This document shows positions 760 through 52,022 of a stretch of 64,000 nucleotides of DNA, in pieces. How positions within the stretch are numbered: position 1 is the first letter of the stretch; each line of letters opens with the position of its first letter. The stretch covers positions 17,519,495 through 17,583,494 of the forward strand of contig CM073328.1 of assembly GCA_037043015.1 (NCBI GenBank), in the 5' to 3' direction. The translations under genes and the position numbers were made by a program. Origin of the DNA: Bryum argenteum (Eukaryota > Streptophyta > Bryopsida > Bryales > Bryaceae). The notes under the pieces are model-generated. The model saw only the letters and a program-made list of their open reading frames with translations, had not been told where the DNA came from and did not search any database.

Positions 760-837
760 GATTCAGAGACAAGCTTGATGAGATAAAATCGTGCTTAAAG
801 CAAAATTGTCTTAAGTTTGTGGTCTTTTTGTACATCA

Positions 838-855
838 CCAATTCTAAAGAATTGG
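838..855 (-). promoter_or_regulatory. 3' UTR hairpin of peptide gene copy A
   Basis: On the minus strand CCAATTC-TTTA-GAATTGG forms a perfect 7-bp stem with a 4-base loop, followed directly by TGATGTACAAAAAG. The hairpin and following GATGTA recur at the matching place in copies B to F. UGUA is a known plant poly(A) upstream signal, so a role in 3'-end formation or mRNA stability is plausible but inferred. Confidence 0.55.
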
Positions 856-1100
856 ATGGGACCAAAGAATGGCAGAGCTAAGTATGTGTCTACGTACATC
901 AGGCCCCCTGGTCTACAAAACGGGGTCCCAAAGAATGAATGGGTTTCTGTTCCGAATGTCGGTAACAATGTTGATGGGATCGAAGATTTCCAGCAGGGTG
1001 AAGTCTATGATCACCGCACAACTGGTATGAGCAACTGGTCACTCACGGTGACTACCATTGCTCGCTGTATCGCTGTACAAAATTTGCTGATGAATTCGGT

Positions 1101-1319
1101 TCAGAAGCCCTTTCCGGGTCTCCACTTGGATGAACCACCATCACCTTCGCAATCGTCGAAGTCGCAGCTGTGCGAGGGAGGCCTCCATCGTGAAGAGCCT
1201 CCATCACCTTCGAAGTGGTGCGAGGGAGGTCTCCATCGGGACGAGCCGCCATCACCTTCGCAGTCGTCGTTATAGGAAGGCTTCCACCTGGAGCCACCAC
1301 CATCACCTTCGGCACCCAT
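1101..1319 (-). CDS. GDGG-SKWRP repeat peptide, copy A (72 aa, four cores)
   Basis: Starts MGAEGDGGGSRWK and contains four cores: GDGGGSRWKP (residues 5-14), GDGGSSRWRP (22-31), GDGGSSRWRP (38-47) and GDGGSSKWRP (59-68). It ends PGKGF and a TGA. Spacers contain DDC before cores 2 and 4 and PPSHHF/PPSHSC between others. There is no signal peptide or membrane segment. It is nearly identical to copy D (20538-20756) in the opposite orientation, and homology runs through the 3' UTR to about 760, so the pair is a recent inverted duplication. A TATA box lies 225 bp upstream. An in-frame ATG at 1412 could add 31 residues, but that extension is not shared by other copies, so the conserved M(A/G)AEGDGG start is preferred. 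Function unknown. Confidence 0.72.
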   Translation of the reverse strand: MGAEGDGGGSRWKPSYNDDCEGDGGSSRWRPPSHHFEGDGGSSRWRPPSHSCDFDDCEGDGGSSKWRPGKGF

Positions 1320-1542
1320 GTCTAGCAAAGCAAATGGTCGATCGATGTCCTCCAGGCCGAGTTCGATCAGTCGACTGAGCAGAAAGCTTCCTTGTTTGAT
1401 GCAGCCGTACAATCTTCTAGCGGACCAGTACTTGCACTGGATTCTTTAAGTTTCGAGTGAGTCGCTGAGGAAGATAGATTGATTGGGTTGTGGAAAGGCT
1501 GTAGGTAAGTTGTGAATGAAGAATGGGGGTCAGTAGGAGCTC

Positions 1543-1598
1543 TTATATGGGGGAGTATACGCGGTCAGCGGTCAGAATGGGAAAACCGCGTCGGCTGT
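1543..1598 (-). promoter_or_regulatory. promoter of copy A
   Basis: Minus-strand reading: CAGCCGACGCGGTTTTCCCA at 1598-1579, then CATATAAGAG (TATA box, about 1550-1541), then the leader CCATTCTTCATTCACAACTT shared almost word for word with copy D. The upstream GACGCG block matches the block upstream of copies B to F, though here its distal CCGAC half is degenerate. Confidence 0.55.
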
Positions 1599-1599
1599 T

Positions 1600-2015
1600 C
1601 AAATATTTGAGCAGCTAGAAGCGTTTCCGTTGCTCGACGTCGGACGAGAAGCAGCCATTGTGGACGAGAGAGGGCAGTCGAGCATCCGTTGTAGTCAACA
1701 ACACTGTTTCAGTCTTCTCACCCGAATGATTTTTTTTCCTTTTTGTAACCAATCACTTCGCCGAATTTTTGGGTTCTGTTGCTGCACTAACGACATGTCT
1801 CTACTTTTTGGTAGGCCCATAGACCAGGGCGCCTCCTCGTGCCCTTGTTCATCATCACCCCAAATGTCGGACTGACACTCTGGCTTCAGCTAGAATATTA
1901 ATTGTTGACCTCGGTCAGCTCTAGGGCACCCTTGGCATTTGGAGTAGCTTATCAAGTATGTCCAACCATCATAATTACTTTATAAGTATGGATGTTTTCT
2001 CGCCGAATAATAAAC
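1600..2015. other. intergenic, no gene seen
   Basis: No supported gene. The last 40 bases (about 1978-2018, ataagtatggatgttttc ... aataaactta) recur at about 2541-2582, so the Tourist-like elements sit between two copies of a short local repeat. Confidence 0.4.
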
Positions 2016-2018
2016 TTA

Positions 2019-2080
2019 GAGCATTCCCACCCATTGCATACTGAGCTGAATAATCAGGGCGCCTATGGGTGGTGATGCCC
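2019..2080. mobile_element. 62-bp Tourist-like mini element
   Basis: Ends are GAGCATTCCCACCCAT and, inverted, GGGCATCACCACCCAT; both sides carry TTA (2016-2018 and 2081-2083), the target duplication typical of PIF/Harbinger MITEs. It is very short, so it may be an internally deleted derivative. Confidence 0.55.
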
Positions 2081-2083
2081 TTA

Positions 2084-2493
2084 GAGCATTGGCACGGTAG
2101 CCCCTCCAAGCAAGCCCATTCAATGTAATGATTTATGGGTTTGTTGAGGGAGAACTCTGGAGGAAACAATGGGGAGACCCACCCCAAAAAGTCCAAATTG
2201 ACATGATCTACCCATCTTTCAAGGTAGCAGTCCCAAAATAAGCCTCCCAAGGACCCTACTACTAAAGAAGTTTATTGAACGCTTACCATAAAAAAAAAGT
2301 ATATTTTTTGGAGGTGAACTTTTGAGTTTAGAGAGACCTTCGAAGAGTGAGGGCCAAGGCCATTCGGAGGGGTTGTTGCCACTCAAAAATAGTTTTGGAG
2401 GGACCAACAAAGAATGGAGTGGGGCATGTTTTCTTCGAAGACCCCAGGATTATTAGGTTTGCGGGCTTAAAATGGTCTGCAGTGCAAATGCTC
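2084..2493. mobile_element. 410-bp Tourist-like MITE abutting the previous one
   Basis: Inverted ends GAGCATTGGCACGGTAGCCC and GAGCATTTGCACTGCAGACC. The left flank TTA is shared with the neighbouring mini element; the right flank is TTC rather than TTA, so one duplication base has changed or the end is one element nested against another. Confidence 0.55.
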
Positions 2494-4263
2494 TTCTAGC
2501 AACATAGGGGCATTTCAAAGCTACAGTCACAAGTTATATTACTATACAAGTATGGATGTTTTTTCAATGATAATAAACTTATAGTAAGCTATGGGTGTCC
2601 TAGAGTTGTAGTTCCGATGTTTTTCAATGGAATAGAATGCAAAGTTCTTTGATGAGTTCATGAATTCAACTTCAACAACTCTAATAAAAAATAGTTCGAG
2701 TGTACCACACAAGTACTTGCCCCTAAGATTGTACTCATAGATGTAATGCCATGTATACTTGAACCACATTTCATATATTTTGGACTTTTTTATTTAGCAT
2801 TTCAGTTACAAACATAGTTCTTGAAGTTGTGACATAGCGATCCACTTCACGAGTTTGACTGTATTATATTGGTTTGGGGTATACGCTCTGAAGTGCAGAA
2901 ATAGCTGGCTATGGCGGAACGGCTATGGAGGCCTTCGTTGTTCACCCGATCAAACCTTCAAACAGTTCTTACAACAGATTCATGCCTTTGATCCTCCGAT
3001 CTGTGTCTTATTACGCTCTTCAGCAATCAATCATTCAGGAATGCTGTATTGAAAACAAACCCAGGAAACAATCACAGATTAAAACAAAGTGTGCGACGGG
3101 GCGAATAATTGGTTTCATTCAGCGGCTGTCCAAATTCGATTAGACTGCATCTGAGGGTACAATCACCCTTTGAAAGAAAATTCTCTTCAACCTAAAATTC
3201 TCTTCCAGGTAGTACAAAAGCTGAACCAGATTGTCCTGAAGACGTCACGGAATTCTAATTCTGATTGAGGATTCTCAGTCTTCGTTGTCGGCGAAATCGG
3301 CGAAACTCTTATTCTAAATACCGATCTAGGTAAAGCTAGCTGGTAGCAACCTAGGTAATTCCTGGTCCAAGCAACCTTACTTTTAATTAATTTCAACCGA
3401 CAATAAGCATAATCTGCAGTTCAAATCTCGAGCGCGTTTCTGACAATCCGATTAGCAGATTACCGGTCACGCAATGTCCAGCACCATCAAATGATTAGAA
3501 AGTACCAAACTGTACAGAACTCAAGATTGTGCATCTTATTCTCAAGCTGTCCGAAGTGCTGGTTTTCTTGGCCACTGTACACTGCACTCTTCTTCACAAG
3601 GATCCGACGAAAGATTTGTAAGCTTTTGATGCTTGGTCGCCCAGCAACCAACTTCTTCCGCGGATTTTGGTGCAGGGTGTCAACGCTAGATTACTGCTGC
3701 TCCTTCTCGGACACGGCATTGCATTAATGCTACATTGTGCAGAACGGAATACCTGCAGAATGCGGTCATAGGGTCACGCAGTACTCCTGTGCATCTACAC
3801 CCATTTCCGTGACTCGTAGAAAGTCCGTATTCTTCAGTTCGTTACTCTCATAATGCTTAGTGCTGTACAGGTCTTAAATTCGGTAGGTACCACTTTCAGG
3901 AGTCACGCAAGTCAATACATACTGGGACTCTTCATGTTTTGAAAATCTTGTATGTTTCTTATGTTATCTATATCTACCTGTCACGACTGGAATCTGGCAT
4001 TGAGATGCATACTGGTCATAACACATCAATTGTTCCAAGAAAATATATGTTGGTGACCGAGTCCCAAATGACCGTAACTTCGGCATCCCTTCAGAGAGAT
4101 CAATCAGAACTGATTGTCAAGAAAATACTGTGAGTCTGGTTGAAGATGTATTCAGGCCTCCAATGTTGAACGTATCCTTTGTTCTATTTTATTCGTCAAT
4201 AAGGAATAAAAACAATGCAGTTTGCTAGCTGAGTCACCAGGAGTCAAAAATATTCCTTGGCAT
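2494..4263. other. intergenic, no gene seen
   Basis: About 1.8 kb without a supportable gene. All open frames are short and lack recognisable domains. Bases 4256-4263 (cttggcat) are the left target duplication of the large fold-back element that follows. Confidence 0.45.
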
Positions 4264-4352
4264 CAGGGATGTCACAGCGTCCGGACGTCCGCAGGGGGTT
4301 ATGGGAGCGTCCGTGACTTAGAGATTTTGGACTATTTACCTAAGGTAAAAGG

Positions 4353-4530
4353 GGCGACCGATCTTCGGCCCGGGCGACCGGTCTTCGGCCCGGACGACCG
4401 GTCTTTGGCCGGGGCGACCGGTCTTTGGCCCGGGCGACCGGTTTTTGGCCCGGGCGACCGGTCTTTGGCCCGGGCGACCGGTTTTTGGCCCGGGCGACCG
4501 GTTTTTGGCCCGGGCGACTGGCCCGCCGAC
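4353..4530. repeat. 20-bp minisatellite in the hAT-like element
   Basis: About nine tandem copies of a 20-bp unit, ggcccgggcgaccggtcttt, with c/t and single-base changes. It lies in the left subterminal part of the element. Long open frames on both strands here are by-products of the repeat. Confidence 0.85.
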
Positions 4531-4599
4531 CGGCCCAACCCGGGGCGACCGGTAGAGCAGTGGCCGTCTGATCGGTCGGCGGTCGACCCGACCGACCGG

Positions 4600-4641
<42 letters not shown>

Positions 4642-4690
4642 GCTGATGGCTGATGGCCAGGCCGTCTGATCGGTCGGCGGTCGTCCCGAC

Positions 4691-4723
<33 letters not shown>

Positions 4724-4727
<4 letters not shown>

Positions 4728-4802
4728 ATTTAGAATCCGGTCGCTCCGTCCGATCGGTCGGGCCGACCGATCGGACGGAGCGACCGGATTCTAAATTTAG
4801 AT
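4724..4802. repeat. 79-bp hairpin, left subterminal
   Basis: Near-perfect palindrome with arms of about 39 bp centred on CGGTCGG-G-CCGACCG. The same 79-bp sequence occurs at 8792-8870. It is preceded by poly(A) tracts (4601-4638 and 4693-4721). Confidence 0.85.
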
Positions 4803-6215
4803 TTTTTATTTTATTTTATTTTTTAAATTTCCCCGGACGGCGTGGGCGTCCGAAGCCGCCTTGGTGGGGAGCTAAGAATGGCGGCCACTCCTCTTAACCC
4901 TAACCCTATTCCAATTTATTTCAACAACCATTTTGAATTTCTTGAACTCCCCCCACCCCCTAAAGTTTTTCAAGACCCAGATTACACTATTTGGGGTTCC
5001 CGCTCAAATAAGATTCTCCTTGCTTTGAGCATTACGATCTCACTAATGGAAAAGAATCGACAGTTTAAATTTTACAAGTCACTAAAAATTCAAGTTAACT
5101 TTAAGATCCTACGGTTGGATCTTCTAAACATTGCTTCAAATGAGGCTTTTCAAGCATGAAGAATTTCGGCAATTTCGCATCAAGGATATCTAGGGATTAA
5201 GATCTCTTTATTTTATCTAAAATTTAACCATACTTAAGTTACTTTTGTGAATTGATTGATGATTCATTTAATCTTATTATCATGGTCCGGAAGATATTAC
5301 CTACTTCGTACTACTTATGGTATGTACTACCTAGTGTGGAATCATGAATTTTTCACATCAACCCCTTTAATCACAAACATGACAAGGTTTGCTTAATATT
5401 GAATAACTTATTATAAAAGGAGACTAATAGTATCTTCATAGATAAGTATTGGCCTTTATCATATAAGATAAAACTTAAGGAAACCATACAAATAAATAAG
5501 TACTAAGAATAGAAATGAGAATTTTATTTTGCTATTGAAAGTTTAGGTGTCTTTAATCTATTACAAGAGAATTATTAATTGTTATGAGGATTTCAAGTTT
5601 TCACCTACAACAATTTAATCTTAGAATTAAGGTTTTTATATTGTCTTTGGGAAGAAAGTTTACAAGAGTTAGAAAACTCACATTTCTTAACACATTTATT
5701 TTTCCTTCAAACCCCCCCCCCTAGCCTTTAGGGGTTAAATAAACAACCACCCATTTGGATTCAAATAAAATTTGTTTAGATACTTAGATCCGTAAATGGT
5801 TAGTAACTATAATATTTTTCATTATCATAAGTCAATGTGAATATATTGCAAATTCTATCAAAGCATGACATTGTACCCCTACAGAATTCCAAGTGATTCA
5901 TGGATAGTTAAGATTCATATGAACAATGAGGAGTTATTTATAATAAGTTCTATTTTTCATGTGTGTCCAAGCCCATAAGATCTTTTGAGTAAAACATTCC
6001 CTTCTATGAAAAGAAGATCTTCCCGACATTCCCCTGACAAAATCGGCATGTGGATTAATGCCCTGATTTAGATTGCAGGTACAATGTCAGGTACCTAAAA
6101 ATAGACAATTCTTAAATGCAAGCAAGAGGAGGAAGAAGAAGGGAGAGATGAGGGAGTGTTGGTGAGTGAGAGAGGAAGAGAGGAGCGCAAGACACCGACC
6201 GGTCGCTCGGTCGAT
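4803..6215. repeat. left arm of the giant inverted repeat
   Basis: Pairs with 6462-8791. Matches include the gcgtgggcgtccgaagccgc block (4850 against 8719), the Ataa-rich middle, the C-run at 5713 against the G-run at 6943, and the agaggaggaagaagaag block (6125 against 6535). Its 4910-5210 part resembles the TTAACCCCTAAA-ended element at 16571, suggesting the arm captured or derives from such an element. Confidence 0.85.
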
Positions 6216-6309
6216 CGAACTGACGCGGTCGCTGGCCGACCGATCGGTCGGAGGGCGCGACCGGAATTCAAGGGGAAAAAAAAAAAAAAAAAAAAAACTT
6301 TGGCTTATC

Positions 6310-6465
6310 GCCCGAGCGACCGATTGACGGAGGGACCGACCGATTGACCTACCGAGCGACCGACCGAGCGACCGAACGATGTCGACCAATGGACCGACCG
6401 ATGTCGACCGATGGACCGACCGAGCGACCGACCGATGGACCGACCGATCGACCGAGCGACCGGTC
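6310..6465. repeat. GACC/GACCGA simple-type repeat at the palindrome centre
   Basis: Irregular 4- and 8-bp repeats of cgac and cgaccgat make up the loop and inner edges of the fold-back. All six frames stay open by composition, giving false ORFs. Confidence 0.75.
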
Positions 6466-8791
6466 GGTGTCTTGCGCTCCTCTCTTCCTCTATCACTCAC
6501 CAACACTCCCTCATCTCTCCCTTCTTCTTCCTCCTCTTGCTTGCATTTAAGAATTGTCTATTTTTAGGTACCTGACATTGTACCTGCAATCTAAATCAGG
6601 GCATTAATCCACATGCCGATTTTGTCAGGGGAATGTCGGGAAGATCTTCTTTTCATAGAAGGGAATGTTTTACTCAAAAGATCTTATGGGCTTGGACACA
6701 CATGAAAAATAGAACTTATTATAAATAACTCCTCATTGTTCATATGAATCTTAACTATCCATGAATCACTTGGAATTCTGTAGGGGTACAATGTCATGCT
6801 TTGATAGAATTTGCAATATATTCACATTGACTTATGATAATGAAAAATATTATAGTTACTAACCATTTACGGATCTAAGTATCTAAACAAATTTTATTTG
6901 AATCCAAATGGGTGGTTGTTTATTTAACCCCTAAAGGCTAGGGGGGGGGGGTTTGAAGGAAAAATAAATGTGTTAAGAAATGTGAGTTTTCTAACTCTTG
7001 TAAACTTTCTTCCCAAAGACAATATAAAAACCTTAATTCTAAGATTAAATTGTTGTAGGTGAAAACTTGAAATCCTCATAACAATTAATAATTCTCTTGT
7101 AATAGATTAAAGACACCTAAACTTTCAATAGCAAAATAAAATTCTCATTTCTATTCTTAGTACTTATTTATTTGTATGGTTTCCTTAAGTTTTATCTTAC
7201 ATGATAAAGGCCAATACTTATCTATGAAGAATACTACTAGTTTTCTTTTATAATAAGTTATTTAATATTAAGCAAACCTTGTCATGTTTGTGATTGAAGG
7301 GTTGGTGTGAACAATACATGATTCCAAACTAGGTTTTGTAATGTAGATGAGGTTTTCAACCCATCTTACATCTCGGAGGTAAAAAATAAGTCCAACAAGA
7401 ATCCTTTTTAAATCAGATACATCTTGTCAAAATTTGGAATAGAGTACAAAATGGTTGATTGGGCCTTTAGTAGTTGAGCGTTAGAGTGAATATCCAATCA
7501 TGTACTATATTGAAAGGCTATTAGCATCATATAAGTATATGAATATGTGAAGGAAAAAGACATATAACATAAAACTTACAATACAAATTCATGCAACCCA
7601 AATTTAGAAGAACAATACTACAAAGTATTATGTGCTAATATTTATCTTTCAAGTGTATGTGTGAGTATGAAGATTATATTTCTATAAGACTCTCCTAAAC
7701 ATTTAACAAGTTACGTAGTGGTAATGTGTAAATATAGATTTTTCATTTAATTGATCTTGGTAGATGTTCATAACTCCTGAATAAATATGAGTCATGTCCA
7801 CATTTATGGCGTATGTTATTTTTTATTTTTGTAGAAAGTGATGTGTCTTCAATATCTTATTATAGCAATTCATAATACTACATGATCAAATATACAATGA
7901 TATATTATTTTAAGATGCGATTAGTTGATATTGACCCCATTTGATTTATATGGCAATAAAATTTGTATTGAATAAAAATAATCTTTGTGGAAGCGTTTTC
8001 TTATCCTCAAGTGAAGATTTTTTATTTAATCTTATTTGACCCTTATGATGCTATGTGTTTTTGGCAAATGACACTAAGAACTTACACCCCCAAAATACCA
8101 AGTGCCCTTCACAGTGAATTAAGACATTAGGCTTGTTCCTAAAGTTTGCAATTTGGGAATTAAAGAAAAATACGTAATTTAAACTAAAAAACACATGAAC
8201 ATCATCCTATTTTCTCTTTTAAGTTGTTAAACATCAACATGCCATAAGTAGTACAAAGTAAGTAACATCTTCCGGACCATGATAATAAGATTAAATGAAT
8301 CATCAATCAATTCGCAAAAGTAACTTAAATATGGTTATAATTTATAGATAAAATAAAGAGATCTTAATCCCTAGATATCCTTGATGCGAAATTGCCTAAA
8401 TTCTCCATGCTTATAAAGCCCTATTTGAAACAATGTTTAGAAGATCCAACCGTAGGATCTTAAAGTTCACTTGAGTTTTTAGTCACTTGTAAAATTTAAA
8501 CCGTTGATTCTTTTCCATTAGTGAGATCGTAATGCTCAAAGCAAGGAGAATCTTATTTGAGCGGGAACCCCAAATAGTGTAATCTGGATCTTGAAAAACT
8601 TTAGGGAGGGAGTTGTTAAGAAATTCAAAATGGTTGTTGGAATAAATTAGAATAGGGTTAGGGTTAAGAGGAGTGGCCGCCATCCTTAGCTCCCCACCAA
8701 GGCGGCTTCGGACACCCACGCCGTCCAGGGAAATTTTTAAAAAAAAAATAAAATTAAAAAAAATAAAAAATAATAAAAAAAAATAAAAAAT
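6462..8791. repeat. right arm of the giant inverted repeat
   Basis: Inverse of the left arm at high identity, interrupted by extra sequence at 7336-8228. The left arm has the corresponding junction at about 5320 (ttatggtatg|tactacctag). Confidence 0.85.
7336..8228. other. extra 0.9 kb present only in the right arm
   Basis: A/T-rich, no open frame of note. It is either an insertion in the right arm or, more simply, a deletion in the left arm. I did not find clear terminal repeats at its edges. Confidence 0.5.
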
Positions 8792-10202: not shown

Positions 10203-10415
10203 ATGAGACCAAAGAATGGCAGCTAAGTAAGTGTCTCTACATCAGGCCCCCTGGTCTACAAAAACGGGGTCACAAAAAATGGGTATATGAATGAGTTGTT
10301 CCCTAATGTCGGTAACAAAAAAAATTGCAGAAGGATGAAGTCAATGATCATCGCATATCTGGTGACTACCATTTGCTCGCAGTATCGCTGTACAAGACTT
10401 GCTTAGCCGGTGAAC

Positions 10416-10631
10416 TCAGAATCCCTTTCCGGGCCTCCACCTAGAGGAGCCACCATCACCTTCACAGTCGTCGAAGCCACAGCACGAGAAGGGCCTCCAT
10501 CTCGAAGAGCCACCATCACCTTCGCGGTTCCACTTGGAGCCACCACCATCACCTTCGCGGTTCCACTTGGAGCCACCACCATCACCTTCGCGGTTCCACT
10601 TGGAGCCACCACCATCACCTTCAGCACCCAT
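10416..10631 (-). CDS. GDGG-SKWRP repeat peptide, copy B (71 aa, five cores)
   Basis: Starts MGAEGDGGGSKWNR. The first three cores are identical EGDGGGSKWNR units (11 aa, residues 4-36) joined head to tail without spacers, followed by GDGGSSRWRP (38-47), a spacer FSCCGFDDCE, and GDGGSSRWRP ending PGKGF. In the first three cores the final proline is arginine. The DNA of the triplet is a 33-bp perfect tandem repeat (10521-10619), so recent unequal exchange or slippage multiplied one core without breaking frame. An in-frame ATG at 10760 could extend it by 43 residues, but the extension is not shared. The 3' flank matches copy A through the hairpin at 10185. Confidence 0.7.
   Translation of the reverse strand: MGAEGDGGGSKWNREGDGGGSKWNREGDGGGSKWNREGDGGSSRWRPFSCCGFDDCEGDGGSSRWRPGKGF
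10521..10619 (-). repeat. 33-bp tandem array inside copy B
   Basis: Three identical 33-bp units (minus strand: one EGDGGGSKWNR each). The period is a multiple of three, so copy number can change without a frameshift. Confidence 0.9.
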
Positions 10632-10921: not shown

Positions 10922-10943
10922 GGAATGACGAGGATTCATGGGA

Positions 10944-11013
10944 CTATATAACGAGAGTGAGGTTTGACTGGAGGGGGGGTCAGACACGTCGGTATGACTG
11001 GGAAACGCGTCAA
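10944..11013 (-). promoter_or_regulatory. promoter of copy B
   Basis: Minus strand: GTTGACGCGTTTCCCAGTCA then TACCGACGTGT (11013-10984), then TTATATAG at 10952-10944. TACCGAC is the dehydration-responsive (DRE/CBF) core and ACGTG the ABRE/G-box core. Stress or abscisic-acid control is an inference from these cores. Confidence 0.55.
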
Positions 11014-11019
11014 CTTGAA

Positions 11020-11681: not shown

Positions 11682-12304
11682 GGGTGATGGTCTGGTTGGG
11701 GTACCCAAAAAGGTTGTCCCATGAACAATTGCACTCTATGCTGGTGTGACAAACATATCCATTTTTAAACTGTAATACAATAAGACTTCATTAGATGTGG
11801 TTTTAGTTGTCTATACTTATAATGTATCAGGAAAAAAAATTAAAAATTAAAAAAAATATTTTGAAGTAATTTTATTTGATTTTTTAGTTGAAAAAGTAAG
11901 TCATGTCCCAATAACCTAAAATCCATAGAATCAAGCAAATGGAATATCAACCATTTTTATTTTAATATAATTTTTGAATATGACCTACATCTTCTTGTAT
12001 AGAATACAAAATAATTTATTTGATAATAAAAAAATTAATTCATTGTGCACTATAATGCCTGCAAATCCCCAAATTCAACACTTTTTCCCTCATCTATGAA
12101 TGGATCCAAAAAAAATAAAAAATCTAAAAGAAAATCTATAGGCATATATACTTTGATTTCAGTGAGGTGCATGATATTTTATTTTCTATTTTAGGGTCTT
12201 TTTACTTGATTAAAATGACTAAATTAGACAAACTTTGGAGGCTTTCAATAAAAATAACCTAATTAGTGTGTCCAAAAAGTGATACCCCAAGCTTACCATT
12301 GCCC
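11682..12304 (+). mobile_element. 623-bp element with 4-bp duplication, copy 1
   Basis: Begins GGGTGATGGTCTGGTTGGGG and ends, inverted, GGGCAATGGTAAGCTTGGGG, an imperfect terminal repeat of about 24 bp. It is flanked by CCCT on both sides. A copy of exactly the same length lies inverted at 28377-28999 with a different duplication (TCAT), which fixes the boundaries. There is no coding capacity. A 4-bp duplication occurs in few DNA-transposon superfamilies (for example Sola), so assignment is open. Confidence 0.82.
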
Positions 12305-17800: not shown

Positions 17801-17940
17801 GACGCGCTTCCATTCTGATCGACGTCACGTACGTACTGGGGACTGTGCGTCACTCACTGTCTGTCTCCCATCACGGCTTGACCTCGCTCCAGTCCCCGAT
17901 TCATTCGACAGAGGCCTGATCACTATCTCTTATATAAGAG
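17801..17940 (+). promoter_or_regulatory. promoter of copy C
   Basis: GACGCGCTTCCATTCTGATC followed by GACGTCACG (17801-17829), then TATATAAGAG at 17931-17940, then a leader with tcttcattcctcattcacac. The ACGTCACG and adjacent CACGTACGTAC are bZIP-type ACGT cores. Confidence 0.6.
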
Positions 17941-18099
17941 CATCGTTTGGTCTTCATTCCTCATTCACACTTTACCGGCAGTCTTCAGTACATGAACCAA
18001 GTCTGCCTTTCAAGTTCCCGAGCATCTAGTACTGATCTAGTGAGAAAAGCTCAATTCCGTTCCAAGATTTTGCCTACAGTGTTCGTATTAGGGTGCGCT

Positions 18100-18186
18100 A
18101 TGGCTGCTGAAGGTGATGGTGGTGGCTCCAAGTGGAAGCCTTTCTTGTGCGAAGGTGATGGTGGCTCCTCGAAGTGGAGGCCTTGA
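18100..18186 (+). CDS. GDGG-SKWRP repeat peptide, copy C (28 aa, two cores)
   Basis: The shortest two-core form: MAAEGDGGGSKWKP, spacer FLCE, GDGGSSKWRP, TGA. The ATG is 160 bp downstream of the TATA box. An in-frame ATG at 17992 would add 36 residues unlike anything in the other copies. The 3' UTR keeps the family landmarks gtacagcgatac.gcgagcaatggta, ttgttaccgacattcggaac and ttctttgggaccccgtttgt, then the hairpin at 18390. The family's last core and PGKGF tail are missing, so this copy has lost, or never gained, two cores. Confidence 0.65.
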   Translation: MAAEGDGGGSKWKPFLCEGDGGSSKWRP

Positions 18187-18389
18187 AAGGGATGATCAGA
18201 GAGTTCTGTACAGCGATACTGCGAGCAATGGTAGACACCGTTGTGTGCGATGATCGAGACTTCATCCCACTGCGATTTTTTGACGCCATTAACCTTTGTT
18301 ACCGACATTCGGAACAAATCATTCATACACCCATTCTTTGGGACCCCGTTTGTAGACACAAATTCTTAGCTGCCATTCTTTGGTCCGAC

Positions 18390-20203: not shown

Positions 20204-20310
20204 GACGCGCTTCGTCTTCTAGCGACGTGGGTCCGGCACTCCGTGTCGAAAATCGCGGCTTGACTGCCTAATCCAGACACAGGCTCGTATGATCGACTTT
20301 AATATAAGAG
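20204..20310 (+). promoter_or_regulatory. promoter of copy D
   Basis: GACGCGCTTCGTCTTCTAGC then GACGTGGG (20204-20231), then AATATAAGAG at 20301-20310, then ccattcttcgttcacaactt, the leader also seen in copy A. Confidence 0.6.
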
Positions 20311-20537: not shown

Positions 20538-20756
20538 ATGGCTGCCGAAGGTGATGGTGGTGGCTCGAAGTGGAAGCCTTCCTACTACGACGACTGCGAA
20601 GGTGATGGCGGCTCGTCCCGCTGGAGACCTCCCTCGCACCACTTCGAAGGTGATGGGGGCTCTTCACGATGGAGGCCTCCCTCGCACAGCTGCGACCTCG
20701 ACGATTGCGAAGGTGATGGTGGTTCATCCAAGTGGAGACCCGGAAAGGGCTTCTGA
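20538..20756 (+). CDS. GDGG-SKWRP repeat peptide, copy D (72 aa, four cores)
   Basis: The clearest family member. Cores: GDGGGSKWKP (residues 5-14), GDGGSSRWRP (22-31), GDGGSSRWRP (38-47), GDGGSSKWRP (59-68), tail PGKGF. An in-frame TGA 15 bp upstream makes the ATG at 20538 the only start. Across the cores the fixed residues Gly, Asp, Gly, Gly, Ser and Trp use varied third bases (GGT/GGC/GGG; TCG/TCC/TCA), and Arg is AGG, AGA or CGG. That is the pattern of selection on the peptide. There is no signal peptide, dibasic site or membrane segment; composition is Gly, Asp, Ser, Arg/Lys, Pro with one Trp per core. Repeated cores in variable spacers recall precursors of ribosomal peptides, but no maturation enzyme is seen nearby. 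Function unknown. Confidence 0.75.
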   Translation: MAAEGDGGGSKWKPSYYDDCEGDGGSSRWRPPSHHFEGDGGSSRWRPPSHSCDLDDCEGDGGSSKWRPGKGF

Positions 20757-20975
20757 AACGAATTCATCAGCAAATTTTGTACAGCGATACAGCGAGCAAT
20801 GGTAGTCACCGTGAGTGACCAGTTGCGGTCGCGAGCGACCGAGCGAATGATGTTCCAATCATCTCGCTCAGGAGGCTTCACATCAAGTCTAGAGATCATT
20901 CATACACCCAATCATTCTTTAGGACCCCGTTTGTAGACCAGGGGGCCTACATTAGCTGCCATTCTTTGGTCCCAT

Positions 20976-26056: not shown

Positions 26057-26222
26057 GACGCGTTGCTGCGGTCATACCGACGTGGGATTGTCAGAGCCTG
26101 ACTGTCTGTCTCGGCCCCAAAGTCAATTGTAGGAGCTCTAGCGGCTGGCTGCCCCCTAGGAAGCTTACTTACGAAAATGACTTACTACCGAAATCGATCT
26201 TTACTATATAAGCTGCCGAATT
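26057..26222 (+). promoter_or_regulatory. promoter of copy E
   Basis: GACGCGTTGCTGCGGTCA then TACCGACGTGGG (26057-26085), the fullest match to the block in copies B and F, then TATATAAG at 26215-26222 and a leader with ccaccattctcccatctccc. Confidence 0.62.
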
Positions 26223-26528: not shown

Positions 26529-26645
26529 ATGGGTGCGGAAGGTGATGGTGGTGGCTCGAAGTGGAAGCCTGCAACCTGCGAAGGTGATGGCGGCTCCTCG
26601 AAATGGAAACCTCCCTGCTCCCTGTACCATGCGGCTCGAAGGTGA
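26529..26645 (+). CDS. GDGG-SKWRP repeat peptide, copy E (38 aa, two cores, third out of frame)
   Basis: MGAEGDGGGSKWKP, spacer ATCE, GDGGSSKWKP, then PCSLYHAARR and a TGA at 26643-26645. A third core follows in the +1 frame at 26638-26679 (EGDEGSSEWKPPS, stop), overlapping the stop. A single-base shift in the spacer has thus cut the third core off. That core has also lost Gly3 (to Glu) and Lys (to Glu), as expected once it was no longer read. The leader is long (TATA to ATG 307 bp) and rich in atcgatcg. The 3' UTR carries a CACTA-like insertion at 26861 but keeps the hairpin. Confidence 0.62.
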   Translation: MGAEGDGGGSKWKPATCEGDGGSSKWKPPCSLYHAARR

Positions 26646-26860
26646 TGAAGGTTCATCCGAATGGAAGCCGCCTTCGTGATTTTCGAAAACCATCATCGGG
26701 ATCATTTCAATGTAAATTTAAGCTGCAATGGTACTCGAGATCATATGCGGAGGTGATCATTTTCACTCTTTGCTGTATCTGCTGCCGACATACAACCATT
26801 CTTCAGGGCCCCGACGTATGTGTGGTCCGACGTAGATTAGCTCCCATTCTTCGAAGCATA

Positions 26861-28376: not shown

Positions 28377-28999
28377 GGGCAATGGTAAGCTTGGGGTATC
28401 ACTTTTTGGACACACTAATTAGGTTATTTTTATTGAAAGCCTCCAAAGTTTGTCTAATTTAGTCATTTTAATCAAGTAAAAAGACCCTAGAATAGAAAAT
28501 AAAATATCATGCACCTCATTGAAATCAAAGTATGTATGCCTATAGATTTTCTTTTAGATTTTTTATTTTTTTTGGATCCATTCATAGATGAGGGAAAAAG
28601 TGTTGAATTTGGGGATTTGCAGGCATTATAGTGCACAATGAATTAATTTTTTTATTATTAAATAAATTATTTTGTATTCTATACAAGAAGATGTAGGTCA
28701 TATTCAAAAATCATATTAAAATAAAAATGGTTGATATTCCATTTGCTTGATTCTATGGATTTTAGGTTATTGGGACATGACTTACTTTTTCAACTAAAAA
28801 ATCAAATAAAATTACTTCAAAATATTTTTTTTAATTTCTAATTTTTTTTCTTGATACATTATAAGTATAGACAACTAAAACCACATCTAATGAAGTCTTA
28901 TTGTATTACAGTTTAAAAATGGATATGTTTGTCACACCAGCATAGAGTGCAATTGTTCATGGGACAACCTTTTTGGGTACCCCAACCAGACCATCACCC
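28377..28999 (-). mobile_element. 623-bp element with 4-bp duplication, copy 2
   Basis: Inverted, near-identical copy of 11682-12304 with the same length. Flanked by TCAT on both sides (28373-28376 and 29000-29003). The high identity and clean ends suggest both copies are young. Confidence 0.82.
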
Positions 29000-36917: not shown

Positions 36918-37058
36918 TCAAGGTCTCCATTTGGAGGCGCCACCATCGCCACGCCTCGGAGGCCTCCATCGCGACGAGCCACCATCACCTTCAACGTAAT
37001 CTTCACTGCAAGAAGCACGGTTCCACTTCGAGCCACCACCATCACCTTCCGCAGCCAT
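36918..37058 (-). CDS. GDGG-SKWRP repeat peptide, copy F (46 aa, three cores)
   Basis: MAAEGDGGGSKWNR, spacer ASCSEDYVE, GDGGSSRWRP, spacer PRR, GDGGASKWRP and immediately TGA. The last core has Ala where others have Ser or Gly, as in copies G and H, so F links the two subgroups. The spacer keeps the Cys-acid arrangement without the exact DDC. An in-frame ATG at 37178 would add 40 residues not found elsewhere. TATA to ATG is about 380 bp, the longest leader of the set. The 3' region contains a tandem duplication and then the aacggggtc-like landmark (ccctcggttacaaaatgggg) and hairpin. Confidence 0.66.
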   Translation of the reverse strand: MAAEGDGGGSKWNRASCSEDYVEGDGGSSRWRPPRRGDGGASKWRP

Positions 37059-37439
37059 CACCAGAGCCCGCAGTAGATAATCTTCGAACCAACTCACAGT
37101 CAAGAAGAAACTCTTAACCAAGCAAGTCTTTGATCGAACAATAGAAGCTAGACCCTCAATCTCAATCGCTTCAGTCAAACAAAAACGAAGAACACTTCGT
37201 GTCTCTTATATGCTCGATCGAACTGATGATCAAATTCACAACCAAGCAAGTCCTCAAAAAGCACAGTCAAGCTAGACCCTCAATCGCCAATCATATGAAA
37301 AATGGACACTCCGTGTCTCTAATGTGATCGATTTACATTCTATTCCTCAACACAAGCAAGTTTCTGAGCACTAGCTAGAGTTCAACTTTGTATTCCAGAA
37401 TGGAAAGAGTGAATGAGGAATGGAGGAGAATTGGAATTC

Positions 37440-41409: not shown

Positions 41410-41765
41410 CCCTGGAGCGATGAGTTTAGCTCAAGGATCATCGCTGCATCGAAGCACTCTAATGAAGCTGCACTTCTAAAAACCAAAATCGAAGCTTCAC
41501 CGTGTCCAGGAAGAATCCTCAAGCCGCTGAATGGCTGTTGATTTCTCTTTGCTGAGTTCAGTTCAGGGATCATCACTTCGAAAATGGTACACATGGAAGC
41601 AGAATGACGAAGCTGGAGCTCTGAATAGCAAAAGCAGAATAAGCTTCACGACCTCCAGGAAGAATCGTTAAGCTTCAATGGCAGATGCAGCTGCAGCTCC
41701 GAACACCAAATGCAGAAGAAGCTTTTACAGTGTCCGGGAAGAATCCTCAAGCTTCAATGGCAGCT
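41410..41765. repeat. degenerate direct repeats, possible small-gene remnant
   Basis: gaagctgca.ctct(a/g)aa.acc and tccaggaagaatcctcaagc recur at about 41465-41525, 41610-41672 and 41685-41755; ctcaaggatcatcgct recurs as ttcagggatcatcact at 41423 and 41560. Open frames exist on both strands (41678-41950 +, 90 codons; 41295-41594 -, 99 codons), so the coding strand, if any, is undecided. No domain recognised. Confidence 0.5.
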
Positions 41766-42288
41766 CACGTCCTGATCCGCGGTGGGTTCCACTTCGAGTG
41801 CCCTCCATCTCCTTCGAAATCCATGCAATCTGCTCTAAAATTCTGCTTCTTGAATGTGTGAACCTGAAAGCCAGCAGCAGCTATGGTGGATTCACTGTTC
41901 AGAACGAGAGCAATGAAGAAGCAGTGTGGTGGTTCCTGTTTTATGATTGAATTGCTTCACTGCCAAGTCATCCTGGCGGTATAGTCGGCAGTAAGTGTCA
42001 ATGAATTTCTCCCTTCATTCTTGCACCACAATTTATCATCAGCATCGACAGACAAAACAAAAAAGAATCGTAGTTCTTTTAATTTAATACGGTTGCACAT
42101 TCTTGTGGGGCAAGGAACTGGGATGAGTGACGTTGTTGCAGGAGAACTTGCCTCTGCCTGGCCATCACTTGCATGGAAGATTCAGTTCTTGAAAGTGTCG
42201 GGAGCACTTGCTTATAATGGCTGGCTAGCTGCTGTTATGGTAGTTACGAGCAGCCGAGTCGCACCTGATGACGAAAAGCGGGGCTTGT

Positions 42289-44040: not shown

Positions 44041-44050
44041 GTTCGGAACG

Positions 44051-44058
44051 TTTATAAG
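44051..44058 (+). promoter_or_regulatory. TATA box of copy G
   Basis: TTTATAAG, 142 bp before the ATG. Upstream, ggcgttttgtatccgcgttcgg (44017-44038, approximate) only loosely recalls the GACGCG block. Confidence 0.4.
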
Positions 44059-44199
44059 CGCACCCCTGCGACCAATTCCACCAACATTCAATTCCTGAAA
44101 CAGGATTCTCTGTGATCATAACGATCTAGCACTAGACTGAAAGATCTAGTGATTCTGGTACGTGGTTTTAGCTTGAGTCCAGTGAGGAATTTTCGATCG

Positions 44200-44304
44200 A
44201 TGGCGGTGTTGGGCGATGGTGGAGCATCGAAGTGGAGGCCTCCGACTAGAGCTGTTATGGGCGATGGTGGGTCATCGAAGTGGAGGCCTCCCTGTAAGGC
44301 TTAG
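44200..44304 (+). CDS. GDGG-SKWRP repeat peptide, copy G (34 aa, two cores before a TAG)
   Basis: MAVLGDGGASKWRP, spacer PTRAVM, GDGGSSKWRP, PCKA, then TAG at 44302-44304. The start lacks the usual AE before the core, and Ala replaces Gly/Ser in core 1. Synonymous drift from copies A to F is large (GGC GAT GGT GGA GCA TCG) while residues are kept. The frame continues after the TAG into another complete core. The 3' UTR does not carry the hairpin seen in A to F. An overlapping 81-codon frame at 44216 is a shadow. Confidence 0.6.
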   Translation: MAVLGDGGASKWRPPTRAVMGDGGSSKWRPPCKA

Positions 44305-44346
44305 TTGGGCGATGGTGGCTCATCGAAATGGAGACCTCCGAATTGA
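44305..44346 (+). pseudogene. third core of copy G beyond the in-frame TAG
   Basis: Directly after the TAG and in the same frame: LGDGGSSKWRPPN and TGA. The core is intact at every fixed residue, so either the TAG is very recent or it is sometimes read through. The next base context, TAG followed by T, is not a known strong readthrough signal. Confidence 0.55.
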
Positions 44347-44350
44347 GGTC

Positions 44351-45994: not shown

Positions 45995-45998
45995 TAAT

Positions 45999-46499: not shown

Positions 46500-46502
46500 T
46501 TA

Positions 46503-47391: not shown

Positions 47392-47493
47392 CTCCCTCCG
47401 TCTCATTATTATTGTCCAGTAGGTTCTTTGAAATCTACCTCCCAAGGTAGATTTGAGCGAACCTACTGGACAATAATAATGGAACGGAGGGAG
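47392..47493. mobile_element. 102-bp Stowaway-like MITE
   Basis: CTCCCTCCGTCTCATTATTA at the left and inverse at the right (arms about 40 bp including gtccagtaggtt), flanked by TA (47390-47391, 47494-47495). The CTCCCTCCGT end is classic plant Stowaway. Confidence 0.92.
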
Positions 47494-47495
47494 TA

Positions 47496-48882
47496 TATGA
47501 TAAGCTTGACATACTGGGGCCTATGACAACTGTTGGAGAACACTTTCATTGGTGTCCTCAAAGCAATGAACGATGAGTACTAGCATTTAGTTACAAGTTG
47601 GCTAATTGATTTTGAGAATTTCCGAATGGAGTTTCAAGGTTTAGGCTTTTCGCCGGTTAATTTTTTTGAAAAATACCCCAGTATCACAGGGTTATCACAT
47701 AGGTATCACCCATGTATAAGAGGGGTATCAATCACAATTACCGGATGATGATCATGTGAAGTGAAAGGATTCAACCGGATGACCTCTGATAACTTCCCGG
47801 ACTGTGCCTCAAAGTCGCTGCAGGTGTGAAAGGGAAGCTTGTCGGGCAAGCATGGATACCACAATTTCTTCCTCCGCAAGTATTTTCATAGCCTCTCATT
47901 TTGAACAAAATAAAGCGCCTCAGGATTCCTCTGGTATTTATGTCACTCTAAACCGGGGCAGGTAAATTACAATAGAATTTCTGGGAAGTGGAATCTGGTC
48001 TTGGACCCTCCCACTTATAGAAAGTGTCCATGTCCCTGCATTTTTATGAATAGAATGGACATGGGCCCAGAACTGGATTCCGGAAAGAGGTACGAAGCTG
48101 AGGGCAACGAATTAACCTCTACGAGCTCAATCAACCATTTTATGGTGGATCCCGTATTTTGAGGAGGTGTAGCAAAAAAAATTGGAAATTGTTTCTACTA
48201 TCCAAAAGTTTGGTGGGTTGAGAACCACATTCAGAACCTCGTTTCGATTCATAGATTGTTCTACAATAAGCCTTCAAACACAAACATGGCAAGGTTTCCT
48301 TAATGATGGAAAACTTACTATTTTGGAAAACTAATAATGTTGTTCTTAGGTTATCAATGGCCTTTCTCTCCATTATCATATAATATGTTAATTAAGCCAA
48401 TTATATCAAGCTCCAGCTGCTCATAATAAAAAGTGTTTTTTCTAATGATTTTCAAAGTTTTACTCTCTTTATTTCATTGTAAAATTGCAAGTTGCTATTC
48501 TGAGAAATTTAACCGTATGGATGTGATATAAGCCTTTTGATCTTCATTTTGTCTATCGAGCAAAACTTCATAAAAATTACAGATTGCATATTTTATAACA
48601 CATCTAAATTTATTTCCAAACCCCTTGGGCGTGTAGGGTGAAAATTTGGCCAATTCCCACTATCAAAATAGGTTTGAAAATGTTGTGGAAATGAAGTTTG
48701 GTAGAGTTTTAAGACAAGTTCTGAGAGTATAATTTGTCATTTATAGGACGAGGGTTGGTTTCCTCTAAATTTGAATGACTTTAATAAATATTACTCACAC
48801 TACCCCCAATGAAGTTTGTTTTAAAGGTTGTCTCAAATCTACCTAGGAGTGTGGTAGTTTTTAGACAATCTCCAAAAGAAGT
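47496..48882. other. intergenic, no gene seen
   Basis: No supportable gene. Confidence 0.4.
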
Positions 48883-49020
48883 TTAACCCTTGAACGTTTT
48901 TAGGATATTTTTAGCCTTTTTTAAAAAAGTGTCATATATAGAAACAAAGATAAGCTATTTAGAACTCAACCGCACAAACATGTAATAGACTTGTGGCAGA
49001 TCATGTGGACCAAAACTTCA
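48883..49020 (+). repeat. truncated copy of the 30850 element
   Basis: TTAACCCTTGAACG start, then segments matching 30864-31010: taagctattta(g)a.ctcaaccg, acaaac.tgta.tagactt, atcatgtggaccaaaa. The right end is lost. Confidence 0.55.
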
Positions 49021-49372
49021 CTCAAGAGAACCCAATCATACTAAAGAATATATTCTCTCTCTATAAGAACAATCATTCTAATAGTAATATCTAGATTGGT
49101 TATATTTACTCCTTAATTGTCGGTTTTCTCTCAAATAACCTCAAATTTCAAGATGACACTCAACTCTAAATTCTTCAAAAGTAGCACTTAATACTCAATT
49201 GTTCCGGACAGTAATTCAAGGTCAAGACTCAAGACAAGATAAAGGGGAGATCTGGAAGGGAGACCAAGATAAACTAAAAGTGAGGGAATTCCTTACACAA
49301 GACTTCTGATGATACTTGAAGTAAAACAAGAGAAAATAGTATTGATAACTAGAAAATAGGTACAATTAGTGT

Positions 49373-49806
49373 TTAACCCTTAAGCGCCCACAGTGTCGTT
49401 TTTCGACATTTTGGATGTGAGGCTTCGTCTTTGGTGCACAACCCGGCTTTCATCCCATTGGTTTTTCATCCGCCGTTTTTTTGCTCAACTCCTCGGTGGG
49501 TTTACTCTACTCCCTCCTTGGATAAATAGTAAAAACCTTGATCCTCAATTTGTGAGAGTGGGCGAAAGAGATTTTTCATGAAAGTTTTGGTGGTGTGATC
49601 TTCACCCTTTTTTTGCATGGATCTTGAAATCCATAGCTCCAAATGGCATGCAACTTGGTGGTCATACTAATTGCCATGCTCCAAAGAAGATCCTACGGTT
49701 GGATTTTCCATTTTCATCTTTTATTTTTTTCTACGCAGTTTTGAAAAAATCAGCATTATTACCAACTGTTAGGAGCTTTACCCCCCCTTGGGCGTTTAGG
49801 GGTTAA
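49373..49806. mobile_element. TTAACCCTTAAGCGCCC-ended element, 434 bp
   Basis: Left TTAACCCTTAAGCGCCCA, right GGGCGTTTAGGGGTTAA (inverse). No clear duplication (gtgt / gaga). Two short open frames inside are not conserved in the relatives. Confidence 0.65.
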
Positions 49807-51893
49807 GAGAGTGAAGAACAACAACTTTCAACTCTCTATATCTATTAGGCTAAAAGAAACTTCCGAGGGAAGATCCTCGAAACCGCCATAGGACCTTCTG
49901 GAGGCACGGACAGCTTCTGGAATCCCAGAAAATAAAGCGGAAGTTTCCTGAATATAAAACGCTTCCGCGGTAAGACCCCGGAAGCAGCAATAGGACCTTC
50001 TGGAATATAGGAGGGTAAAGTGGAAACTTTCTAAATCTAATAGAACCTCCTAAAAGCTATGGAAGATTCTAGAATCTTCCAGAAACTTAGACACACAAAC
50101 TATATTAAATAAACAGACTCTAGAAAGTTCTTGCAATACAAGTGAATCACGGTATACTCATAGGTGTGGATGACACTTGGTATGACACGTTCGTGATACC
50201 AACATCTCTAGCCACTAATGTCACTTTCCATTACACCATAGGCTTTGAATTTCTTTCAAAGAATAAGAAACACTCCTTTAGCACAAAAGCAAAACCCATC
50301 TTAATGCCCACTTTTTTTTTTTTTTTTTTTTTTTTTTTTCTTTTTTTTTTTTTTACTTGATGAAAATGATAAAGCGGTCCATAATAGCAAAAATTCTAGC
50401 TCGTTCTCTACATTTTTAACACATGAAATAACCTCCCTTGATAACAAACAACTTATAGGCAAATCAAGGAGGTTGTTGTAGAGGGCGTTGAGTGCATATG
50501 ATAAAATAGAAAAAGTACACCGATAACTTCACAAAAATATCATTAGTGTTCAATAATAAAGGATTTTTCAAGAGTTTCAACTCTTCTATCAACAAAAAGT
50601 TGGTCGATTAGACCTTTAGTTGAAGTTAAGCAATGATAAATATTCTTGATGACCCTTTGACATACTCCTGTCCGAGATGTCCACTTCTATTGCTCTTCAA
50701 TATTATCTATTTCCAAAAACACATGTCCACATCACACTTCAAAAAAGGAACACGCATTTTTCAAAGAAGATCTTGCATCAATTGTGCAAAAGAAACCACG
50801 ACAGCATTTTGTTGCCCATGGCACATCGTGCATGGTTCACATTTTCTCTTATTTAATCCCGACAAGGATTTGCCAGAGACCATGATGCACAATCCCAACA
50901 AGGATTTGCCAAAAACCACAACTGCGCCGTGCTCTACGTGCTCTAAGCTTTAAGGCTGTAGAGTTTCAAGATTGTCAATGTCATCAAATTATAGTAACAA
51001 TAGATTAATGGCATATCTAACTAAATATAAACTTACTTATGAACTTTGGGATTACCCCATCCCCAGACCTGCAATCTATACATGTGAAGAATATCTTCAC
51101 AAAATCTAACTCTTAGAAACCATTTTCTATGTAATGATGTTAAACGTAGACTCTGAAAATATTATATAAAGCGTAGAAAGTATGCTTCACTTCCTTTCAA
51201 AACCTAACAACGTACTCTTACACCGTCTCTCGTAGCATACCTGGTCTTGATTCGGAAAAACCCAGATTCTCCAAAATAGTCGAAAATATGTCAGAAGCCA
51301 TTGATATCCAAAACTTTTGGAATTTCATGGTTGACTGAATCAAACTTCTAGGATACAAAAAACCTCAGAATATCACTGATTCTTCAAGCACAAGCTGACA
51401 AACTAGTATAAACTCGTTAACTAATCTCGATGCGCTTGAACTTCAGAATTACGACGAAATCATGCATGTTTCCATTCTAGAAGGTGAGTTAATGAGCTTC
51501 AGAATCACGACGTTTCCATTCTAGAACATCTAAGTGGGTCAGTGCCGCGATGGTCAATGGCAATGGATACAGTCGTGTCAGTGTCAGAATCAAGGATCAA
51601 CGGGCGCAACTTGTCCATCACGACATTGATCACGGTCTGTCTGGCTCTGTCAATCCACAAACATATCCATTAATTGCAAATCCAATACAGTGTTAAAGAA
51701 GGTAACGCACAGACTCACCACCATGCAAGTTAGTCAAGCATTCTTATGTCGCTCGCTCTTGAACAGCCGATTTTGTAACATTACATTCTCCCAGCATTGA
51801 GAATCGTGCCCTGTATTTAGTTTCTGAAGCTTCGCAGACAGTGATCGCAGCCAACAGTTAGTTTACTGATCGAAGAGCTGGATCGAACGATCA
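49807..51893. other. intergenic; poly(T) tract
   Basis: No supportable gene. A 45-base T-rich run at 50311-50355 may be the tail of a minus-strand retroposon, but I find no flanking direct repeat. Two copies of cccgacaaggatttgcca.a at 50858 and 50893 give a spurious frame. agaagcatcc/gaagatt-type repeats at 49860-50090 (ttccggaa-like) are irregular. Confidence 0.35.
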
Positions 51894-52022
51894 ATGGGTG
51901 CTGCAGGCGATGGCGGTGCTTCCAAATGGCGGCCTCCTCAAATCGTTCACCATTCTCATCGACTCTGTAATCTGCAAATCAATCAAGCTCTTGAAGGTCA
52001 AGCACATCGTTGCAAATCTTGA
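51894..52022 (+). CDS. GDGG-SKWRP peptide, copy H (42 aa, single core)
   Basis: MGAAGDGGASKWRP then PQIVHHSHRLCNLQ and a polar tail ending CKS before TGA. Only one core, with Ala as in copies F and G. The core DNA (GGC GAT GGC GGT GCT TCC AAA TGG CGG CCT) differs from copy D at nearly every free third base while the protein is kept. I do not find the GACGCG/TACCGACG block, a convincing TATAAG box, or the 3' hairpin nearby. It could be an old, separately regulated member or a relic kept by chance. Confidence 0.45.
   Translation: MGAAGDGGASKWRPPQIVHHSHRLCNLQINQALEGQAHRCKS

Follow-up and report, generated by a model that had tools for sequence, protein, structure and literature searches.

A tandem cluster of leaderless repeat-core mini-protein genes in the moss Bryum argenteum, with candidate relatives in Sphagnum

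The genome of the moss Bryum argenteum contains a cluster of small open reading frames (ORFs) encoding peptides with one to five copies of the core GDGGxS(K/R)W. Nine such loci lie in the stretch analyzed here, a window of 64,000 nucleotides on contig CM073328.1 (C8 in the following; C8:17,519,495-17,583,494). The family consists of protein-coding genes under purifying selection, which is strongest in the cores; it has undergone tandem birth and decay, varies in core number and has relatives elsewhere. As to what the proteins do, we favor, with a probability of roughly 0.42, multivalent bryophyte mini-proteins, disordered and without a leader, whose cores would each serve as a docking motif.

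One cluster of small coding genes on C8

The cluster was delimited by searches over the 258.8-Mb assembly. A 24-base degenerate pattern of the core gave 68 matches, against seven for a reversed-pattern control, and 64 of the 68 fall within C8:17,270,097-17,584,643 (315 kb), which reaches about 250 kb to the left and 1.5 kb to the right of the window. The four remaining matches (C1, C2, C3, and C10) correspond to the background given by the control. A protein search of the genome with a single member returned 27 matches, 24 inside the C8 stretch (locus W2 only at an expectation value, E, of 4.1) and three outside it at E 3.1-4.7, and searches with Sphagnum-type and other relatives returned the C8 cluster alone. 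A shorter core pattern with one mismatch allowed was unspecific (152 matches, control 95). The core DNA is restricted to this one cluster and is not the genome-wide repeat that the preliminary description of the window had named as a refuting outcome.

We catalogued 30 ORFs (A1-A6, B1-B12, C1, D0, W1-W9, and E1). The A ORFs encode 20-30 amino acids with one core each, in which Cys replaces Trp in A1. B1-B12 form a minus-strand array at 17.300-17.401 Mb, and seven of the twelve encode 52 amino acids with three cores, for example MGVMGDGGSSKWRPPKQSAAMGDGGSSKWRPPSKSPLGDGGSSKWRPPSRLQ. Several copies are damaged: B3 carries a frameshift, B9, D0, and W8 have stops ahead of further cores, the family ATG is missing from B7, and B8 is short of one codon.

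Pattern matching combined with reading of the ORFs places 25 in-frame core matches at nine loci on both strands of the window:

W1, 1101..1319, minus strand: 72-amino-acid ORF, four cores (MGAEGDGGGSRW...GKGF)
W2, 10416..10631, minus strand: 71-amino-acid ORF, five cores
W3, 18100..18186, plus strand: 28-amino-acid ORF, two cores
W4, 20538..20756, plus strand: 72-amino-acid ORF, four cores; recent duplicate of W1
W5, 26529..26645, plus strand: 38-amino-acid ORF, two cores
W6, 36918..37058, minus strand: 46-amino-acid ORF, three cores
W7, 41765..41824, minus strand: 19-amino-acid ORF, one core, MDFEGDGGHSKWNPPRIRT
W8, 44200..44304, plus strand: 34-amino-acid ORF, two cores; third core beyond a TAG stop
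W9, 51894..52022, plus strand: 42-amino-acid ORF, one core; repeat-free tail

The preliminary description had listed eight loci on both strands, with 28-72 residues and one to five cores each. All eight are present and hold 24 of the 25 cores, but the count was one short, as W7 had been missed. Its estimate of about 25 cores agrees with the total, although one of these (44308-44331, W8) is in frame behind the TAG stop and another belongs to W7. The start M(A/G)AEGDGG, said to be shared by most members, occurs at six of the nine loci. W1 and W4 are 97% identical in DNA across 289 nt, the first three cores of W2 are identical in DNA (33-nt repeats), and an in-frame upstream ATG at 17992 would extend W3 to 64 amino acids. 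No RNA gene was found in the window by Rfam or tRNA searches.

In seven pairs of close paralogues, differences amount to 0.275 per synonymous and 0.051 per nonsynonymous site, whereas the 200-nt flanks, which contain many gaps, differ by 0.200 on the upstream and by 0.219 on the downstream side (eight pairs, B9/B12 being added). Synonymous sites thus change about as the flanks do, and amino-acid sites about five times less. The pairs were picked for equal length, so that their gap-free reading frames do not count as a result. When the same base changes were placed at random in five pairs, which are not independent of each other, the fraction of placements with as few amino-acid changes was 0 (5000 trials), 0.0004, 0.0118, 0.098, and 0.

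Pooling nine B genes (without B3, B7, and B9) gives a ratio of nonsynonymous to synonymous change (dN/dS) of 0.125, and pooling seven genes of the W/D group (without W7-W9) gives 0.328; A, C1, and E1 are outside these pools. Within eight B genes (B8 also left out), it is 0.047 in the 11-residue cores and 0.233 in the spacers, which shows the genes to be protein-coding. These values lie far below 1 and not near it, the outcome against which a dN/dS check had been suggested earlier. Among 65 cores, 64 or 65 retain each of G, D, G, G, and S and 63 retain Trp, while the bases at third positions differ between cores, in line with what had been noted for the window. The set was selected by its own motif, which biases its contrast of synonymous (pS 0.691) and nonsynonymous (pN 0.078) differences.

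In 22 of the 30 ORFs the first core starts at residue 5 (for B7 counted from a non-ATG start), in the six A ORFs at residue 8 and in C1 at residue 3. The eight positions of the core carry 3.5-4.3 bits of information, except for the variable fifth (2.95); after them, (R/K/N)-P-P carries 2.3-3.2 bits. The residue preceding the core, mostly E, M, or L and partly so by common descent, carries 1.6 bits here and 1.3 bits in the other candidates described below, and positions beyond W-x-P-P carry at most 1.7 bits; no common cleavage site is seen around the cores in this alignment information. The place of the first core at residue 5, together with the weakly conserved residue before it, would speak mildly against a processed precursor.

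By eye, the conserved start M(A/G)xxGDGG contains no hydrophobic stretch and the family has no family-wide signal peptide. A hydrophobic run does follow an in-frame upstream ATG in B5 and W3; as it is not common in the family alignment, a signal peptide for the family was rejected. Together with the selection data, this upholds the earlier view of a leaderless, repeated-core, protein-coding peptide family. All 30 ORFs have a negative mean hydropathy, Gly, Ser, and Pro together make up 22-53%, and the spacers of the B array are basic. A single-sequence AlphaFold model of W4 is unstructured (mean predicted local distance difference test score, pLDDT, 53). Core number ranges from one to five per ORF, and since single-core members exist, one core may suffice as a unit.

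Candidate relatives in Sphagnum and other records

Searches beyond this genome yielded candidates elsewhere, Sphagnum included. Querying 5.8 billion proteins with one sequence returned P0001 (E 1.2e-7) as the single match. A profile made from 23 peptides of this genome and P0001, scoring the 8000 candidates that shared most words, yielded 20 matches at E of 10 or less, of which 11 at E up to 1.2e-3 comprise P0001 and ten new, clear ones (P0002-P0011). A second profile, containing 19 of these 20 matches, gave 23 matches, 15 of them at E below 0.003; the E-values of its own members and near copies (P0012 at 4.5e-10, P0021-P0023) are partly due to construction. All searches of these 5.8 billion proteins together provide 32 candidate relatives, one of which, P0020, looks like a chance match.

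An organism is named for five of the 32 candidates, all from Sphagnum (three from S. magellanicum, one each from S. fallax and S. balticum); the others may come from mosses or environmental samples. Twelve of the 32 have their first core starting at residue 5, and 15 have it at residue 6 or earlier; P0001, P0006, P0024, and P0025 have a Met exactly four residues ahead of an internal first core. A KQS spacer is common to P0001, P0002, and the B array, and to the eye P0028 is close to a copy of the first ~61 residues of C1. P0014, P0018, P0024, P0025, and P0029 form a separate set, with MSGEGDGGGS(K/R)W..., a hydrophobic stretch and a C-terminus resembling IDVAVC (P0025 has IDVSVC).

The Sphagnum candidates are longer, otherwise dissimilar proteins with the core in an internal or C-terminal position, and they support relatedness at a moderate to weak level. 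CY35_07G103200 of S. magellanicum (P0012) and BDL97_07G095400 of S. fallax (P0023) follow the same core grammar with a PP tail (GDGGSSNYKPP; GDGKGSPWNPP or GDGKGSSWRPP; GDGGGSKIKPG). They differ from the Bryum peptides in being hypothetical proteins of 121 and 128 amino acids with three degenerate cores and a long non-core N-terminal part. In B. argenteum itself, a 59-amino-acid ORF on C3 (L011, 1348-1527; C3:26,666,874-26,667,050), the sole match in the genome, ends in ...ESGSKWRNRFGDGGGSKW, like the C-terminal cores of the Sphagnum proteins, and is possibly a dispersed family member.

The preliminary description knew of no plant family with this core, and no described family was found in the databases searched. 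Pfam returned only PDE6_gamma (E 0.053, one member) for 26 family members, NCBIfam, which covers bacteria and archaea, returned nothing for 23 of the 24 first-profile members, and the Protein Data Bank gave no credible match. The Pfam and NCBIfam scans gave no curated match to secreted hormone families (CLE, CEP, RGF, PSY type), and no late embryogenesis abundant (LEA) model matched in the scan of W4 or of the 26 members against Pfam. A prokaryotic origin was rejected after 84,980 prokaryote species were scanned for close relatives of one 52-amino-acid member (176 pattern matches, none confirmed), and a viral origin after viral contigs gave 17 pattern matches, none confirmed. Nine core strings were not found in the open PubMed Central (PMC) full text of 5.39 million papers, which excludes supplements and most subscription papers.

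How the cores may act

We propose that small TATA-box genes would express leaderless, intrinsically disordered mini-proteins, and that the genes would have multiplied via tandem duplication and internal core repetition. The extended core GDGGxS(K/R)W(R/K/N)PP would be a short linear docking motif with Trp as its anchor; its one to five copies would set valency toward one intracellular partner, and additional gene copies would set dose. Transcription, disorder in the cell and intracellular docking as the activity are what we infer here. The shared 5' and 3' blocks and the TATA-like boxes (see below) count in favor of this proposal. Our preference for docking over ligand release is moderate. It is based on the mostly fixed N-terminal place of the first core, the single-core members and the lack of a common cut residue, as well as on the Sphagnum candidates that hold the core in the body or C-terminus of unlike proteins. 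As the first core sits at residue 5 in 22 of 30 ORFs and in 12 of 32 candidates, this layout needs no cleavage, and in occurring in unlike longer Sphagnum proteins the core would behave as portable motifs do.

Several observations weigh against this proposal. The broken members, with a frameshift, premature stops and a lost start, mean that part of the cluster is decaying. Constraint is not significant for the W1/W4 pair alone (P = 0.098), the pooled dN/dS is higher in the W/D group, and the spacers are constrained too (0.233) and may matter. P0012 reached E 7e-3 against the profile lacking it, and P0030-P0032 from Sphagnum have E 2-7 and otherwise rely on visible cores. An AlphaFold model from one sequence is weak evidence for disorder, and no known domain that binds the core motif could be named.

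The main rival, which we consider unlikely, is that the ORFs encode leaderless precursors like those of systemin and Pep, which would be cytosolic and cut upon wounding, each core, or core with spacer, being freed as a ligand. A conserved core, a looser spacer and a multi-core layout are usual in ligand precursors, and here the core is indeed more conserved than the spacer (0.047 against 0.233), the spacers of the B array are basic and no family-wide signal peptide is seen by eye. Systemin and Pep precursors normally bear one C-terminal ligand, whereas one to five equal cores start here from near residue 5; no sequence relation was seen, and none was tested. A likeness of PPSKR in some spacers to systemin is too short to count. 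Against this reading, the low information before the core (1.6 and 1.3 bits) and after W-x-P-P (at most 1.7) provides no common cleavage site, an N-terminal register at residue 5 is common (22 of 30), and single-core members of 19-23 amino acids would need little processing. Non-secretory signal peptide families do exist in plants (PMC11756074), and systemin, Pep and others of this class are likewise short, plant-encoded and free of a signal peptide.

Several near-identical cores with variable spacers between them are also found in multi-domain CLE or CEP precursors. Those precursors have signal peptides, whereas the present family shows none by eye and matched neither a CLE nor a CEP model.

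Glycine-rich hydrophilic peptides for stress protection, of LEA or hydrophilin type, in which composition outweighs sequence, would fit the negative hydropathy of all 30 ORFs and their content of Gly, Ser, and Pro, in a moss, a group that tolerates drying. This reading is improbable: what selection preserves is the precise residues (Trp in 63 of 65 cores, and G, D, G, G, and S in 64-65 of them; core dN/dS 0.047), not the composition, no LEA model matched, and a fixed Trp is odd for hydrophilins.

The alternation of conserved repeated blocks with variable ones would also suit precursors resembling those of ribosomally synthesized and post-translationally modified peptides, with the core as the stretch recognized by an enzyme and the spacers as the product. 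The spacers are, however, under clear purifying selection in the B subgroup (0.233), single-core members have little spacer, and no tailoring enzyme turned up when six ORFs of the window were compared with Pfam, a scan for enzymes that did not extend to the remaining cluster; we regard this reading as quite improbable.

That the loci are no genes at all, their reading frames having arisen by chance in a satellite or dispersed DNA repeat, is hardly credible: tandem and inverted DNA copies occur in the window and some copies contain stops, but 64 of 68 matches lie in one 315-kb stretch while two transposon-like repeats of the window are spread over many contigs, synonymous and nonsynonymous changes contrast, and relatives exist in other records. 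On the confinement to a single cluster, set against these two transposon-like repeats, a dispersed repeat was rejected.

Gene landmarks, neighboring elements and wider meaning

Upstream of seven of the nine window loci, 147-324 nt from the ATG, lie TATA-like boxes, identified by consensus match without a chance control:

W1, 1540..1547, minus strand: TATAAGAG, 228 nt 5' of the ATG; consensus match only
W2, 10943..10950, minus strand: TATATAGT, 319 nt 5' of the ATG; weak
W3, 17931..17938, plus strand: TATATAAG, 169 nt 5' of the ATG
W4, 20303..20310, plus strand: TATAAGAG, 235 nt 5' of the ATG
W5, 26205..26212, plus strand: TATATAAG, 324 nt 5' of the ATG
W6, 37203..37210, minus strand: TATAAGAG, 152 nt 5' of the ATG
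W8, 44053..44060, plus strand: TATAAGCG, 147 nt 5' of the ATG

For W9, no such box was found within 400 nt upstream. With a loose pattern and no shuffled control, 26 of the 30 ORFs of the cluster have a TATA-like string in the 400 bp upstream; several of these strings are common to neighbors or probably due to chance, and none was found in that range for A6, B2, B5, and W9. Landmarks in the 3' untranslated region (UTR) are present at five window loci:

W1, minus strand: 17-mer at 921-937, 28-mer at 1052-1079
W2, minus strand: 17-mer at 10265..10281, two mismatches
W3, plus strand: 28-mer at 18207-18234, 17-mer at 18332-18348
W4, plus strand: 28-mer at 20778-20805, 17-mer at 20913-20929
W5, plus strand: 17-mer at 26797..26813, three mismatches

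At up to one mismatch the 28-nt landmark is limited to W1, W3, and W4, genome-wide too, and at up to three mismatches the 17-nt landmark occurs at W1-W5. The six loci said earlier to share promoter and 3' UTR landmarks are therefore not cleanly six: TATA-like boxes are found at seven of nine, the 28-mer at three and the 17-mer at five. In the B array, over the stretches of the alignment listed, the TATA region is common, several members have a CATTCATTCTTCC-like block, and the leader from there to the ATG is gapped. The 3' flanks of B4, B6, B8, B10, and B11 (C8:17.36-17.40 Mb) share a TGTACATAA-like string, one base off in B11, which we take to resemble a PUF-protein site or an upstream polyadenylation element.

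The A locus (A1-A4, C8:17,270,049-17,270,603) has one TATAAATCC box. Downstream of this single well-placed TATA box, four successive mini-ORFs of 20-30 amino acids with the same core lie within about 555 bp, and every one has an ATG and a stop of its own. A2 and A3 differ by eye at 10 of 131 aligned bases, two of these inside the ORF and both silent, and A5 and A6 are a similar pair. It is plausible that the locus is polycistronic, with four mini-proteins from one mRNA, although a TATATAGC string 29 nt upstream of A2 is a possible second start. ENOD40 of plants and tarsal-less/polished rice of insects are polycistronic small-ORF genes. The A locus resembles them in its four successive small ORFs with the same core; it differs in its peptide and in the second TATA-like string before A2. 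ENOD40 is counted among small-ORF peptides in PMC11756074.

Apart from the family, the window contains two larger ORFs:

55515-57047, plus strand: DDE-superfamily transposase ORF (PF13359, E 8e-29), presumably of PIF/Harbinger type
59546-60385, minus strand: Myb/SANT-like (trihelix) ORF (PF13837, E 7.7e-9), which we assume to resemble moss trihelix proteins

At about 5363-7301 lies a long inverted repeat with arms that are mostly 99-100% alike (93% at the outer end) and a short center. For a 401-nt piece of an arm, 40 scored matches among 235 candidates have 97-100% identity, often as plus/minus pairs some 750-900 bp apart, on many contigs; judged by these copies, the repeat is a young foldback-like mobile element. 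A 623-nt sequence occurs in two inverted copies (11682-12304 and 28377-28999) that are 99% alike, and a 501-nt piece of it gave 40 scored matches among 754 candidates at 99-100% on many contigs, which marks it as a young high-copy repeat. Next to long A-runs, positions 4332-4551 hold a G+C-rich tandem repeat with a unit of 20 nt (GGGCGACCGGTCTTTGGCCC-like; eight registers listed).

Plant mini-proteins with repeated cores in tandem clusters are a known kind. Judged by our database and open-literature searches, this family with its core motif and its leaderless layout seems not to have been described, nor does the possible four-ORF gene, and we know of few small leaderless ORFs with selection evidence this clear. 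We tentatively suggest that GDGGxS(K/R)W defines an undescribed, bryophyte-wide class of leaderless multivalent mini-proteins, with about 30 tandem genes here, including a four-ORF polycistron, and with the core as a portable docking or signaling module in longer Sphagnum proteins. Small leaderless ORFs are easily overlooked in gene annotation, and one genome here offers about 30 natural variants of one motif in which core number, spacer and Trp are separable. If docking or signaling holds true, the family would constitute a novel peptide system of bryophytes that could be tested in Physcomitrium or Sphagnum, provided they have it, and the A locus might provide a case of polycistronic mini-protein genes in plants.

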